DNA of 64,000 nt from Futiania mangrovi (lineage in GTDB: Bacteria > Pseudomonadota > Alphaproteobacteria > Futianiales > Futianiaceae), in assembly GCF_024158125.1 (NCBI RefSeq), contig NZ_JAMZFT010000003.1, forward strand, positions 372,001 through 436,000. Reading direction: 5' to 3'. The translations under genes were made by a program, and so were the position numbers. The notes below the pieces were generated by a model. It saw only the letters and a list, made by a program, of their open reading frames with translations. It searched no databases and was not told the origin of the DNA. This document shows positions 20,965 to 57,844 of this stretch, in pieces. Position 1 is the stretch's first letter, and each line of letters starts with the position of its first letter.

Positions 20965-22620
<1,656 letters not shown>

Positions 22621-22708: not shown

Positions 22709-23815
22709 TCAGACGTTCCCCTCCCACAGCGTCCGCCAGCTTTCGACCATCGCGTCGAGGGAATAGTCGCGTTCACACTTCTCCCGGTTCGCCGCACCGA
22801 TGCGCGCGCGAAGGGCCTCGTCGGCCAGCAGCGCTAGCGCCGAGCGGGCCAGCGCGCCCGCGTCCTTCGCCACCAGATAGGGCCGGTTTTGCGGCGCCAC
22901 CATCTGCGCGATGTCGCCCACGTCGGTGGTGGCAACGGCAAGGCCGCTCGCCATGGCTTCGAGCACGCTCACGGGCATCTGCTCGGTATCCGAGGACAAG
23001 AGGAAGAGGTCGAACGCCCCCACGACGCTCGCCGGGTCGGCGACATAGCCGGTGAAGAAGACGCGGGTCCCCACACCCAGCTTGCGCGCCGTCTCCTCGG
23101 CAGCCTCGCGCATCCTGCCCTCCCCCGCGATGGCCAGGCGGCAGGGCCGTTCGGCATTGACCTTCGCGAACGCCTCGACCAGGCGCGGCAGGTTCTTCTC
23201 CGGCCGCAGCGCCGCGATGGTGCCGAGCAGCGGCCCCATGGCCGGATCGCCCATCTTCGCCAGAAGCTCGGGCGCAGGCGTGCCCGGAAAGCGCGCCACG
23301 TCGACGCCGTTGGGGACGAGGCGCAGGCGGTCCTCCGGCAGCCGCCAGATGTCCCGGGCGATCCGGTAGAGGGTGTGGGAGGGCAGCAGCACCGTCTTGC
23401 CGCGCAGCGCGATCCGCCGCATCCACACCCGGCGCGGGATCTGCCCCGTCGCCTCCTCCGGCCCGAACCCGTCCTCGAAATGCAGGTGCGGCACGAGGCG
23501 CGGCGTGTTCGCCAGCGCCCATTCGATCGAGCCCCAGTTGCAGGTCAGCAGCAGGTCGGGCCGCATCTCCTTCAGCACGGCGCGGAAGCGCCTGCGGTTG
23601 CCGAGCGTATCGCCCTTGGTGACGGACACGTCCTTCAGCAGCGTCACGTCGAGCGCCGGATCGAGCCGCGCCGCGCACGCATAGTCCCCGTCCATCGCCA
23701 GGATCGAATGCCGAAAGCCCGCCCCCATCGCCTTGGCCAGGCTCAGGAACCGGACCTGCGGGCCGCCGACTGCGAATGTGGCATATACGTGCAGCAGGTG
23801 ACGTGGGCCTGTCAT
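22709..23815 (-). CDS. Family 4-type glycosyltransferase
   Basis: This 368-residue GT-B glycosyltransferase has an N-terminal acceptor domain starting HLLHVYATFAVGGPQVRFL and a C-terminal nucleotide-sugar domain with LVPNGVDVARFPG, GTIAALRPEKNLPRLVEAF and FFTGYVADP. The donor-site motif EQMPVSVLEAMASGLAVATT carries the E-x7-E pair of family GT4. Donor and acceptor are unknown. The gene lies 17 bases after the fused oxidoreductase gene on the same strand, so the two may build one cell-surface glycan. Its base composition is like the rest of the window, unlike that neighbour. Confidence 0.88.
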   Translation of the reverse strand: MTGPRHLLHVYATFAVGGPQVRFLSLAKAMGAGFRHSILAMDGDYACAARLDPALDVTLLKDVSVTKGDTLGNRRRFRAVLKEMRPDLLLTCNWGSIEWALANTPRLVPHLHFEDGFGPEEATGQIPRRVWMRRIALRGKTVLLPSHTLYRIARDIWRLPEDRLRLVPNGVDVARFPGTPAPELLAKMGDPAMGPLLGTIAALRPEKNLPRLVEAFAKVNAERPCRLAIAGEGRMREAAEETARKLGVGTRVFFTGYVADPASVVGAFDLFLLSSDTEQMPVSVLEAMASGLAVATTDVGDIAQMVAPQNRPYLVAKDAGALARSALALLADEALRARIGAANREKCERDYSLDAMVESWRTLWEGNV

Positions 23816-23832: not shown

Positions 23833-25935
23833 TTAGGCGCCCGGACGCGGAAGTGCCCGCTCATAAAAAACGGTTAGCTCACTCACAGGCGACCAATCGA
23901 GATCGGCCTTGGCCGCACCGCAATCAAATATGGCATAGAGGCCACGGGATACGACATCCCGGCGCGAGGGCAATGCCACACGCCTGCCACCAATCCGCTT
24001 GATCATCCACTTTGCCACATCGGTCAGCCACAACCGAGTAGGTGAACCTGAGTGATAGACGAGCGGACGTCCCGAAACGCGAGCATATTGCTCCAGGAAC
24101 TCGCGCGCCGAAGGGCGGGCATCGCCTACCAGATTATAGGTCTTGCCATCGATACCGCGTGCCTCGAGCGCCTGGACAATGGCGCTCGCGACATCCTCGG
24201 CGAGGATCCAAGGAAGCGGATGCCGCCCACTGCTCCAGCCAATACAGTGCTGTTCATTGTTGAAAATGCCGAGGCCCCCGTGGAATGGAGAGGTACCCTC
24301 ACCGACGACAAGCCCCGGGCGCAGGATGACGACAGGAAGCCCATCTGTTTTGTGTGCATCGAGCAGCCAGGTATCGGTCTCCGCCTTCACCCGGGCATAG
24401 TCGTTGCGCGCCTCCGGATATGGGTCCGAGGGCGTGTCGTCGCGCACGATCCCGGCGTCCGGCCCCAGATAGAGCGAGGCGATCGACCCAACGTGCAGCA
24501 GTCGCTCGACCTTCTTTTCGCGGCAGATATTGGCAACCGATTGCGCGCTGCCCAGCATCGCCGCACGGATTTGGTCGAGGTTGGCGCCACCGCCGCCATG
24601 GGCGAGATTGACCACGAAACGGGCAGGGCCGATGGCACGTGAGATATCGTCGGGGTTCTTGACGTCGCCTCGAAGGACCCGAACGTTCGGATGCGAGAAG
24701 ATGGGGTCGAGATTAACGGTGTTGCGCGCCATCACGCCAACGCGCCAGCCCCGGTCGACCAGCGCACGCACCGTATGCGTCCCAATGAATCCGGTACCGC
24801 CGAGCACGGCCACATCCCACGCTTCCGGCCCCTCAGCGGCGACTGCCGTAGCCTCTGCAGGGGCGGGCGCGATCTCGTGCGCGATCTCTTCGCATACCCG
24901 GACGAGTTCTGCGCCAAACGCTCCATTGGTTTCCGGCACCTGCTGACTGGCAAGACAATCGTAGAAATCCGCGACGGATGACGCCATTGATTCAAAGAAC
25001 ACATCTGACCGGCGCACGAGTTTTATCTGCGAGAGGCTATATCGGATTGTGCGACCGACCGTATCGGCGATCATGCTCGAAGCAGTCCGCAGCGCCGTCA
25101 GCGGCAAGTCAACCGGTTCCATCCAGCGCGTGCGACCAGTGACGTAACACTGGCCACGATACATGTCGGCAATTGCGATCCCGTCGGAGCCATAGGCGGT
25201 CAACTGCCACACGGGAAAGTCGGCACCCACTTCGAAATGCAGGCTGACCGGGCACCGCTCCGCCTCGAACATCACGTCGGCTTGTCTCAGCAGGGGAATG
25301 TCCGAACCGATCTTGTCGACCCTGCCTGCGCGCGTCACAAAGCCTCCAAGCGGCCCGACCAGGGCCCGGACTTGCGACAACGGATGCACCGCTTGCTCCA
25401 ACAGGATGTTCACCGGTTTGCGGAACATCCAGTGGCCGAACTGGCGCGAGGCCAGCTGGCGCAAGGGTGCCCGGTAGACACACGCAACATGGCTGATCGG
25501 CCCGATCGCCCCCGACTCCATTAGGGCGCGCAACTTTCTGAACGAGGGGTGATGCACGAAATTCTGGTTGACGGCGAGCGTTGCGCGACCCGCTTCAGCT
25601 GCCTGGATCAGAGCGTCACACTCCGCCGTCGAGACCGCGAGCGGCTTCTCCACGAGCGTCGGCAGCCCGGCAGCGAGGGTAGCAAGCGCGGGCGCGCTGT
25701 GATGATCGGGCGGAGTGAGAATATGTGCGGCATCGAAACTACCTGACGCGAGTGCCTGCTCGACATTCGCAAACGCCCCCTCTGCGCCCCACTTGGCAGC
25801 AAAGGCTGTGCGCGCAGCTTCCGAAGGGTCCACCGCCGCACCAATCCGGACGCCATCAATACCCTTCAGGGCCTCGGCATGAGCCGCGGCGATATTTCCG
25901 GTCCCGACAATGCACACTCGCCACGTACGCGCCAT
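23833..25935 (-). CDS. Fused Gfo/Idh/MocA oxidoreductase - SDR epimerase/dehydratase protein
   Basis: This single frame of 700 residues joins two NAD(P)-dependent sugar-type enzymes. Residues 1-340 are a Gfo/Idh/MocA oxidoreductase: a Rossmann start VCIVGTGNIAAAHAEALKG and the VEKPLAVS motif that holds the catalytic Lys. About 365-690 is an extended SDR with GGTGFIGTHTVRAL, HVGSIASLYLG and the YxxxK pair in NDYARVKAE. Such pairs act on nucleotide-sugar or cyclitol substrates; the exact one is unknown. GC is much lower than the neighbours (31 of 60 bases in 25021-25080), which suggests recent transfer. An ATG at 25935 is chosen because the fold starts there. A glycosyltransferase follows 17 bases downstream. 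Confidence 0.82.
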   Translation of the reverse strand: MARTWRVCIVGTGNIAAAHAEALKGIDGVRIGAAVDPSEAARTAFAAKWGAEGAFANVEQALASGSFDAAHILTPPDHHSAPALATLAAGLPTLVEKPLAVSTAECDALIQAAEAGRATLAVNQNFVHHPSFRKLRALMESGAIGPISHVACVYRAPLRQLASRQFGHWMFRKPVNILLEQAVHPLSQVRALVGPLGGFVTRAGRVDKIGSDIPLLRQADVMFEAERCPVSLHFEVGADFPVWQLTAYGSDGIAIADMYRGQCYVTGRTRWMEPVDLPLTALRTASSMIADTVGRTIRYSLSQIKLVRRSDVFFESMASSVADFYDCLASQQVPETNGAFGAELVRVCEEIAHEIAPAPAEATAVAAEGPEAWDVAVLGGTGFIGTHTVRALVDRGWRVGVMARNTVNLDPIFSHPNVRVLRGDVKNPDDISRAIGPARFVVNLAHGGGGANLDQIRAAMLGSAQSVANICREKKVERLLHVGSIASLYLGPDAGIVRDDTPSDPYPEARNDYARVKAETDTWLLDAHKTDGLPVVILRPGLVVGEGTSPFHGGLGIFNNEQHCIGWSSGRHPLPWILAEDVASAIVQALEARGIDGKTYNLVGDARPSAREFLEQYARVSGRPLVYHSGSPTRLWLTDVAKWMIKRIGGRRVALPSRRDVVSRGLYAIFDCGAAKADLDWSPVSELTVFYERALPRPGA

Positions 25936-26021: not shown

Positions 26022-26990
26022 TTAACGACCGAGGGACACCCGAAAGCGATCTAACACAGGCGCAGCAGTATGAAACACCGCTTCCGCCTCGCGCACGACG
26101 ACCGGGTCGGCGCCGCCCGCGCGCAACACGTCCGCGATGTCAGCCAACGCATCCGCGCGCGCGAGGCCGACGAGACGGCCCTCCCCGCTCGCGATGACCG
26201 AGAGACCTGCGTCTTCGAGCCGCGCCAGAAGATCGGCGGACGGGGCGCTCTTCGGCCAGGCTTCAACGATCCGCTCCCGGCGCCCGGTCTCGTCCGCGGC
26301 GACGAGGTCGAGGATGCGGGCGAGCGCGGCCAGCGCCCCCTCCCCCCACGCCGCCTTCAGCGACGCGCCGAGCACGGCCTGCGAGCGCAGGATGACCCCG
26401 TCGTTCAGGATCTTCAGATTGTTCGCGGCGAGCGTCGCGCCCGTCGAGGTGATGTCGACCACGATCTCCGCAGTGCCGGACGCGGGCGCACCCTCGGTCG
26501 CGCCGAGGCTCTCCACGATCCGGTAGTCGGAGACGGCATGGCGCACGAAGAAGCCGTGCGTCAGCTTCAGGTACTTGGTCGCCACGCGCAGCCGCCGCCC
26601 ATGCCGCGCGCGATAGCCCGCCGCGACCTCGTCCAGGTCGGCCATGGTGTCCACGTCGATCCAGGTCTTCGGCACGGCGACCACGAGGTCGGCACGCCCG
26701 AAGCCCAGCGGCTTCAGGATCTCCACCTTCTCGCCGGGCGTCGCCTCGTGCTCGTGCAGCAGATCCTCGCCCGTGATGCCGAGATGCACGGTCCCGTCGC
26801 GCAGCCGGTCGGCGATCTCGGCGGCCTGCAGGAACAGTACCTCCACGCCGTCGAGCCCACCCAGCCGGCCGACATAGTCGCGCGCGCCGCCCGCCGTCTC
26901 GATGGGCGTGCCGATCTGCGCGAAGAAGCCGATGGCCTTCTCCTGAAGCCGCCCCTTCGACGGCACCGCGATGGTCAGGCGCGCGCTCAT
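26022..26990 (-). CDS. hisG: ATP phosphoribosyltransferase catalytic subunit HisG
   Basis: HisG joins ATP and PRPP in the first step of histidine synthesis. The catalytic core (about 1-230) shows [40 protein letters not shown] and the PRPP loop [16 protein letters not shown]. At 322 residues it is longer than the short HisG forms that need HisZ. The extra C-terminal 90 residues (from about 230) do not read like the usual regulatory domain of long HisG. The start overlaps the hisZ stop as ATGA, so both are translated together. As I recall, Caulobacter HisG is about this long, so the length may be lineage-typical. Confidence 0.93.
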
Positions 26991-56935: not shown

Positions 56936-57124
56936 CCGATGCTGACACAGGCGTCACGTCTCGTTGACACATCGCCCGCGCCACGGGCCCGGCGTTAACC
57001 ATATAACCGCCCATGGAACGGGCGGTTTCCTGCCATGCGATGCGCTTGGCACGAACCCTGCTTTTTTCATCGGCGCCCGGCAATCGCCGGGGGGATCCGA
57101 CAAGAACGCAGGGAATACCCAGGG

Positions 57125-57844
57125 GTGACACGCATCAAGACCATTGCGGCCGCGCTCGTGCTGGCGCTCGGAACGGTCGCGGCTGCCGAGGCCGCGCCGG
57201 TCAGGACCGACATCAACCATTGGATCAGCGGCTCGACGAGCCGCACCTACGACATCAACGGCGACGGCATCGACGACGTCCGTTTCGACAAGTCCTACGG
57301 CTATTCTTCCTACTATTCGCGCTGGTCGGACCTCCATGTGACCGGGCTCAACGGCGCGCAGATCGCGACCGGCGGACCGCTGTCGGCGGGCGATGCGATC
57401 GACGCCGCGCTCGGCTTCACCAGCACACGGCATCTGGCCGACTACAACTACTCCTACTCTCCGGGCGGCTGCTCGGGCAGCTGGTTCCGCCGCAGCTGCT
57501 GGCCGAGCCGAACCTACATCTCCTACAATGGCGAGTGGAACGCAGGCACGGCCATTGCCGACGGCTTCCTCGGCATCATGCTGGCGACCGCGACCGATAC
57601 GCTCTTCGGCTGGTTCGACCTGCGCATGGATGCGCAGGGCAACGCGCTGGTGCGGGCCATGGGATACGACGACGCGGGCGGCACGAGCTATGCCGGGGAG
57701 GAAACGCTGGTCGTGTCCGAGAGCCGCGAGAGCGAACCTCTGACCCAGGCGCAACCGGGCACGCAGGTTCCCGCGCCCGCGCCGCTTACCCTTCTGGCGC
57801 TCGGCCTCGCCGCGCTGGGCCTCAGCCGCCGGCGCACTGCCTGA
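57125..57844 (+). CDS. Secreted VPxPA-CTERM surface protein
   Basis: This 239-residue exported protein starts with a signal peptide (RIKTIAAALVLALGTVAAAE, cut near AEA-APV) and ends with a PEP-CTERM-like sorting tail: VPAPAPLTLLALGLAALGLS followed by RRRTA. The tail has the short Pro motif, a membrane segment and a basic end that exosortase/archaeosortase systems cut. The mature part is rich in Tyr, Ser and Gly with two cysteines (GGCSGSWFRRSCW) and a DINGDGIDDVRFD segment that may bind calcium. I choose a GTG at 57125 because it opens the signal peptide; an ATG at 57035 would put 30 residues before it. No exosortase gene is here. Confidence 0.72.
   Translation: MTRIKTIAAALVLALGTVAAAEAAPVRTDINHWISGSTSRTYDINGDGIDDVRFDKSYGYSSYYSRWSDLHVTGLNGAQIATGGPLSAGDAIDAALGFTSTRHLADYNYSYSPGGCSGSWFRRSCWPSRTYISYNGEWNAGTAIADGFLGIMLATATDTLFGWFDLRMDAQGNALVRAMGYDDAGGTSYAGEETLVVSESRESEPLTQAQPGTQVPAPAPLTLLALGLAALGLSRRRTA

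Follow-up and report, generated by a model that had tools for sequence, protein, structure and literature searches.

A conserved fusion of a Gfo/Idh/MocA oxidoreductase with an extended SDR enzyme, paired with a glycosyltransferase and largely tied to exosortase A exopolysaccharide loci

The window analysed here is a stretch of 64,000 nucleotides from Futiania mangrovi, in which one gene encodes two enzyme domains in a single chain and is followed by a glycosyltransferase (GT) gene. The features, with coordinates counted within the window, are:

23833..25935, minus strand: fusion gene, 700 aa, with its ATG at 25935 and its stop ending at 23833
24862..25935, minus strand: Gfo/Idh/MocA half, residues 1-358, placed by Pfam, model and structural matches; GxGxxA nucleotide-binding loop and Asp36 after strand 2
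25642..25650, minus strand: EKP, residues 96-98, catalytic Lys motif; invariant in 58/58 alignment rows
25384..25386, minus strand: His184 within the LLEQAVHP motif, invariant; the equivalent stretch of WlbA is NQASH
24820..24861, minus strand: linker, residues 359-372 (about 15 residues), placed by alignment and model
23836..24819, minus strand: extended SDR half, residues 373-700, placed by Pfam, models and fold/profile matches
24781..24801, minus strand: GGTGFIG nucleotide-binding loop, residues 379-385, invariant
24385..24399, minus strand: catalytic pair Tyr513-xxx-Lys517, invariant
22709..23815, minus strand: GT4-type glycosyltransferase (PF00534/PF13692), starting 17 bases past the fusion stop
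26022..26990, minus strand: hisG, upstream neighbour outside the two-gene module (TIGR00070 above cut-off)

The original prediction had described a single 700-residue frame without stating its strand; the frame is real and lies on the minus strand, with GGAG directly 5' of its ATG (25935), and the plus strand contains stop codons across the same interval. The motifs on which that prediction relied (GTGNIAAAHAEALKG, VEKPLA, GGTGFIGTHTVRAL and YARVK) are all found in the 700-aa translation, and its reading of two intact enzymes in one chain agrees with the Pfam domains, namely GFO_IDH_MocA at residues 6-123 (2.4e-21), GFO_IDH_MocA_C3 at 132-253 (1.9e-7) and Epimerase at 375-602 (2.9e-28), and with invariant active sites in both halves. 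The AlphaFold model of the whole chain, proposed at the time as a check, has a mean pLDDT of 92.0 and a pTM of 0.86, with pLDDT below 50 solely at residues 360-365 in the linker and at 698-700. The stretch from Cys348 to Gly379 measures 28-32 residues in 46 of the 58 alignment rows. RefSeq labels the fused protein only as 'NAD-dependent epimerase/dehydratase family protein'.

Relatives of the fusion number 62 in our collection of genome contigs, and 53 of them carry both halves in one uninterrupted open reading frame, which rules out a sequencing or assembly merge of two genes; the other nine are cut by a contig end, frameshifted (e.g. L081, L093 and L094) or partial matches. Another search added four further fusions, and L004 is a duplicate of L042, so that 56 distinct full-length fusions other than the window's own are known (57 with it, or 58 alignment rows with the duplicate), at 29-55% identity to the window's protein. 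Because these 56, in the domain order that the prediction had asked to be sought in other genomes, exist, the fusion is not an assembly artefact. Fusions recovered in class-wide and phylum-wide samples likewise exclude that the homologues are always separate genes, and thus neither of the two outcomes named beforehand as fatal to the idea, a merging error or separate homologues throughout, was found. By record title the carriers are mainly Alphaproteobacteria, together with Hydrogenophaga, Nevskia and a Magnetococcales MAG. The class-wide sample contains the fusion in 18 of 385 genomes and the phylum-wide sample a match at 1e-35 in 12 of 398, one of them to part of the Gfo half only. More distant fusions of the same order occur in G022 and five other members of another alphaproteobacterial family, elsewhere in the phylum (G572, G641 and G743) and on a planctomycete plasmid (34.6% identity). 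Seven plasmid records match the fusion at 27-35% identity, and the search for phage carriage gave no phage match. Altogether, the fusion is real, old, widespread and generically annotated. In Hankyongella ginsenosidimutans (L094, 10183-12114) the fusion region is spread over several frames, reflecting decay or assembly errors.

The glycosyltransferase that had been noted 17 bases downstream is indeed present at that spacing. It scores 162 bits against TIGR03088, the XrtA-system glycosyltransferase (cut-off 409.05), and hence is a relative only. Downstream sequence of 600 bp or more is available at 56 of the 58 loci, and in 52 of these 56 (the window included) an orthologous GT4 follows the fusion, mostly at a spacing of -14 to +32 bp and often with a 4-bp overlap; it is missing at L007, at L060 and at L004 and L042, which are one and the same gene. 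Fusions of a further group (group B) have a different GT directly upstream instead, of GT2 type in L133, and in L137 a GT1/GT4-type enzyme lies downstream. The fusion and the orthologous GT4 form a two-gene module. On the plus strand, a 549-aa cpn60/TCP-1 family protein (PF00118) is encoded at 20971-22620 of the window, between an aminotransferase and the glycosyltransferase.

The surroundings of this module link it to a known surface system. At least one core marker of exosortase A (XrtA) loci is found in 34 of 53 fusion loci, with the TIGR03108 amidotransferase in 22, and the conserved neighbours are parts of the XrtA system: TIGR03108, XrtA, FemAB, a deacetylase, an ATPase, stp1, PrsK, PrsR, PrsT, a tyrosine kinase and EpsB2. 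Some copies fall slightly below their cut-offs (TIGR03108 in L033, 811 vs 816.9 bits; XrtA in L055, 198 vs 208 bits). Amidotransferase, fusion and GT are consecutive, with few bases between them, in L033, L035 and L036. Within the sequence stretches examined, 19 of the 53 loci show no XrtA marker; control loci lacking the fusion show none in 27, a weak control of 95 kb in total vs 855 kb. Across the class-wide sample, an XrtA-like exosortase (1e-30) occurs in 44 of 385 genomes, divided into 13 of the 18 with the fusion vs 31 of the 367 others (Fisher p 5.6e-10, a value that is too small because related genomes are treated as independent), and fusion and exosortase lie within 30 kb on one contig in 7 of the 13 genomes with both. 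The TIGR03108 amidotransferase exceeds its cut-off in 28 of 385 genomes, of which a comparison of the lists places 11 among the fusion carriers. The fusion is thus largely tied to XrtA/PEP-CTERM exopolysaccharide loci.

It is, however, not present whenever XrtA is. XrtA exceeds its cut-off in 11 of the 18 fusion genomes, and five (G022, G123, G130, G313 and G315) have no XrtA match; conversely, only 11 of the 30 genomes with XrtA over cut-off contain the fusion. Together with the 19 loci that show no marker, these counts make the fusion an accessory and not a core part of the system: fusion and GT lie within, or co-occur with, XrtA/PEP-CTERM clusters in many genomes, yet the fusion is absent from most XrtA genomes. 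Split halves replacing it in such loci were ruled out, since neither half was found in any of 14 XrtA loci lacking the fusion (20 kb each, E 1e-5). As regards the original suggestion of an unusual surface sugar, the context and the glycosyltransferase partner were borne out, while the link to XrtA/PEP-CTERM loci had been missed.

The N-terminal half belongs to the Gfo/Idh/MocA family, scoring 77.1 bits with the Rossmann domain PF01408 (gathering threshold 24) and 31.5 bits with the C-terminal domain PF22725 (threshold 27), and its EKP motif and catalytic His are present in all 58 alignment rows, in which Gly11, Gly13, Asp36, EKP96-98, Glu180 and His184 are invariant. Its profile matches include KanD2 (2.1e-34), scyllo-inositol dehydrogenase (7.9e-30) and WlbA (3q2i, 7e-29), and structural matches at Z 31.7-36.5 comprise levoglucosan dehydrogenase, scyllo-inositol dehydrogenase, WlbA, KanD2 and GnnA. 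At the catalytic stretch, EQAVH of the fusion aligns with NQASH of WlbA and DLGCH of inositol dehydrogenase. The UDP-GlcNAcA 3-dehydrogenases WlbA and WbpB share with this half the fold, the EKP motif, the (E/N)QAxH stretch and a polysaccharide context; unlike the fusion, they are stand-alone proteins that supply a 3-aminotransferase, with 18-19% identity to the Gfo half. KanD2 (6jw6), from kanamycin synthesis, is the top profile match (25% identity over 305 residues), but is a single-domain enzyme with a natural-product substrate.

The C-terminal half is an extended SDR (PF01370, 99.4 bits vs a gathering threshold of 20.9) with invariant GxxGxxG and YxxxK motifs; GGTGFIG379-385, Arg404, Tyr513 and Lys517 are conserved in 58/58 rows, and at position 484, which probably holds the catalytic Ser/Thr, 51 rows have Ser and seven have Thr. 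Profile searches retrieve 8vr2, named Pcryo_0617 oxidoreductase/decarboxylase (5.5e-23), and gox2253 (4.1e-22), and the structural matches, at Z 27.4-29.2, are nearly tied between gox2253, UDP-sugar epimerases/dehydratases and plant NADPH reductases. Whole-domain fold (Z 27.5-29.2), YxxxK and GxxGxxG are shared with gox2253 (3wj7) and with UDP-sugar 4-epimerases (6wjb, 6zlk), yet identity to these enzymes is only ~20%. The counterpart of Arg404 is Arg in cinnamoyl-CoA reductase and gox2253, but Asp in the UDP-GlcNAc 4-epimerase 6wjb, and so the acidic residue after strand 2 that marks NAD-retaining UDP-sugar 4-epimerases is replaced by Arg in all 58 rows. Hence, the epimerisation or dehydration originally envisaged for this half is favoured in part only, with Arg404 resembling an NADPH reductase and not the Asp of an NAD-retaining epimerase.

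As a rule, Asp after strand 2 goes with NAD and Arg with NADP. With Asp36 and Arg404 each invariant in 58/58 rows, one signature residue per half suggests that the first half performs an NAD-dependent oxidation and the second an NADPH-dependent reduction. Indirect support for the idea that one half passes its product to the other as substrate comes from the conservation of the fusion and from separate, adjacent Gfo and SDR genes that occur in the fusion's cluster in four distant loci (L145, 3735-5767; also L133, L134 and L135). In one of the four, on a Shinella zoogloeoides plasmid, genes for a Gfo/Idh/MocA protein and an NAD(P)-dependent oxidoreductase (SDR) overlap within the fusion's polysaccharide cluster. 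The four separate Gfo copies are 60-67% identical to one another and about 22-34% identical to the Gfo halves of the fusions. Trees were built of the Gfo half (45 rows) and of the SDR half (36 rows), with group A sampled as the window plus every fourth of its remaining rows. In both trees, groups A, B and P form a common cluster of fusions, as would be expected from a single ancient fusion. Group C (L137-L139) is less easily accommodated: its members, whose N-terminal extensions look like out-of-frame reading and were trimmed, join the other fusions with their Gfo half (98/92) but the separate-pair SDRs with their SDR half (98/95), a discrepancy that points to an exchange of domains or to a second fusion.

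Gfo/Idh/MocA and SDR proteins are common, and members of both families are hard to assign. For the fusion, no NCBIfam equivalog exceeds its cut-off (the best are TIGR04380 with 75.4 vs 355 and HpnA with 61.4 vs 367.65), so that no characterised family supplies a substrate. The conserved single chain argues for coupled reactions, which would narrow the chemistry to a keto-sugar relay. On balance, we favour the fusion being a bifunctional sugar-modifying enzyme of exopolysaccharide synthesis; since it lies beside a GT in many bacteria and often in slime-layer clusters, it probably makes one unusual sugar for the protein-decorated slime layer. In the mechanism that we propose, the substrate would be a nucleotide-activated hexose, which may be a uronic or an amino sugar; the Gfo half would use NAD+ to oxidise one of its ring hydroxyls, most likely the one at C3, and hand the reactive keto sugar within the chain to the SDR half. 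This half would reduce it with NADPH, either on the other face or at an adjacent carbon, yielding an inverted or rearranged sugar for the GT4 partner to attach to the growing polysaccharide. Drawing on opposite cofactor pools, with NAD+ and NADPH both entering, could pull an otherwise reversible inversion forward, and in XrtA loci the adjoining AsnB-like amidotransferase may then amidate the sugar.

We consider it unlikely, though worth weighing, that the two halves share one sugar without working in sequence, for example as a Gfo C3-ketoreductase and an SDR C4-ketoreductase working on different keto groups of a 4-keto-6-deoxy precursor. Actinobacterial deoxysugar pathways use such pairs of C3- and C4-ketoreductases, the profile matches of the Gfo half include sugar 3-ketoreductases (3rbv), and the SDR half bears the Arg of NADPH reductases; however, Asp36 points to NAD, which would be less expected in a ketoreductase, the Gfo half is matched most closely by oxidising dehydrogenases, and no 4,6-dehydratase is a conserved neighbour among the annotated clusters, which cover a subset of the neighbours. 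In L033, however, a 325-aa SDR of the sugar-nucleotide epimerase/dehydratase type is encoded about 5.8 kb further downstream than the fusion. Less probable still is an action on a lipid- or polymer-linked sugar, during or after transfer by the GT, in place of a nucleotide sugar: judged by the titles of their structures, KanD2 and the levoglucosan- and glycoside-processing Gfo dehydrogenases do use sugars that are not nucleotide-bound, yet of the sugar enzymes whose fold is nearest to that of the SDR half, most work on UDP- or dTDP-sugars. That one half alone is catalytic in vivo and the other a scaffold or regulator, as is the case in some fused proteins, is very improbable, as we found nothing in its favour and the catalytic residues of both halves are invariant in 57 distinct sequences with 29-55% identity to the window's protein.

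Returning to the preferred relay, a uronic-acid-type substrate would be in keeping, by analogy, with the relevant parts of two studies. The linking sugar of P. gingivalis is a uronamide produced by an AsnB-like amidotransferase, according to the sections of Veith 2020 (PMC7468200) on this pathway, and in Rubrivivax, mutation of a WbpS-like amidotransferase of the PEP-CTERM polysaccharide cluster altered growth mode and colony form, as stated in the part of PMC3684757 that treats this mutant. As laid out in those sections of PMC7468200, the Wbp/Vim pathway of type IX secretion resembles the XrtA loci in combining a Gfo-type dehydrogenase (WbpB), an AsnB-like amidotransferase, a FemAB/VimA-like protein and a sorting enzyme; in contrast to what we propose for the fusion, the keto sugar is aminated there and not reduced, and these sections mention no SDR fusion. 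The same pages speculate that exosortase loci, in which related FemAB and TIGR03108 proteins occur, give rise to a sugar modified with an amino acid. The words oxidoreductase, dehydrogenase and epimerase are absent from the full text of Haft 2006 (PMC1569441), the literature searched contained no description of the structure or the protein-anchoring sugar of the XrtA-type exopolysaccharide, and an open search, part of which could miss the slashed spelling Gfo/Idh/MocA, returned no paper on a Gfo-SDR fusion. New here are the two-gene module with the GT4 and its tie to XrtA/PEP-CTERM loci; this dedicated GT and this link provide a concrete, testable gene for exopolysaccharide composition. As a long shot, the fusion might, in the lineages that carry it, make the very sugar on which exosortase A depends, a rare sugar of uronamide type formed by NAD-dependent oxidation and NADPH-dependent reduction, amidated by TIGR03108, aminoacylated by the FemAB-like protein and used by XrtA as acceptor for PEP-CTERM proteins, as a counterpart of the linking sugar that the Wbp/Vim pathway provides for type IX secretion.

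In the window's own genome, XrtA (323.6 bits) and TIGR03108 (835.7 bits) are direct neighbours on contig C1, with the full XrtA gene set; fusion and GT follow the his genes on a different contig (C3). The fusion has a third-position GC of 0.70 (0.70 and 0.69 for its halves), whereas the GT reaches 0.90 and the genes of the XrtA locus range over 0.81-0.90; this difference hints that the fusion was acquired separately. PEP-CTERM motifs over the cut-off number 12 in this genome, one of them in the window: a PEP-CTERM protein is encoded at 57035-57844 on the plus strand, with its motif at 57764-57832 (22.1 bits, over the PF07589 cut-off), so that the exosortase system has a likely substrate there. 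A second XrtA-like exosortase, with 186 vs 208 bits below the XrtA cut-off, is present at C4:111804-112574 of the genome (L103, 6151-7989, minus strand).
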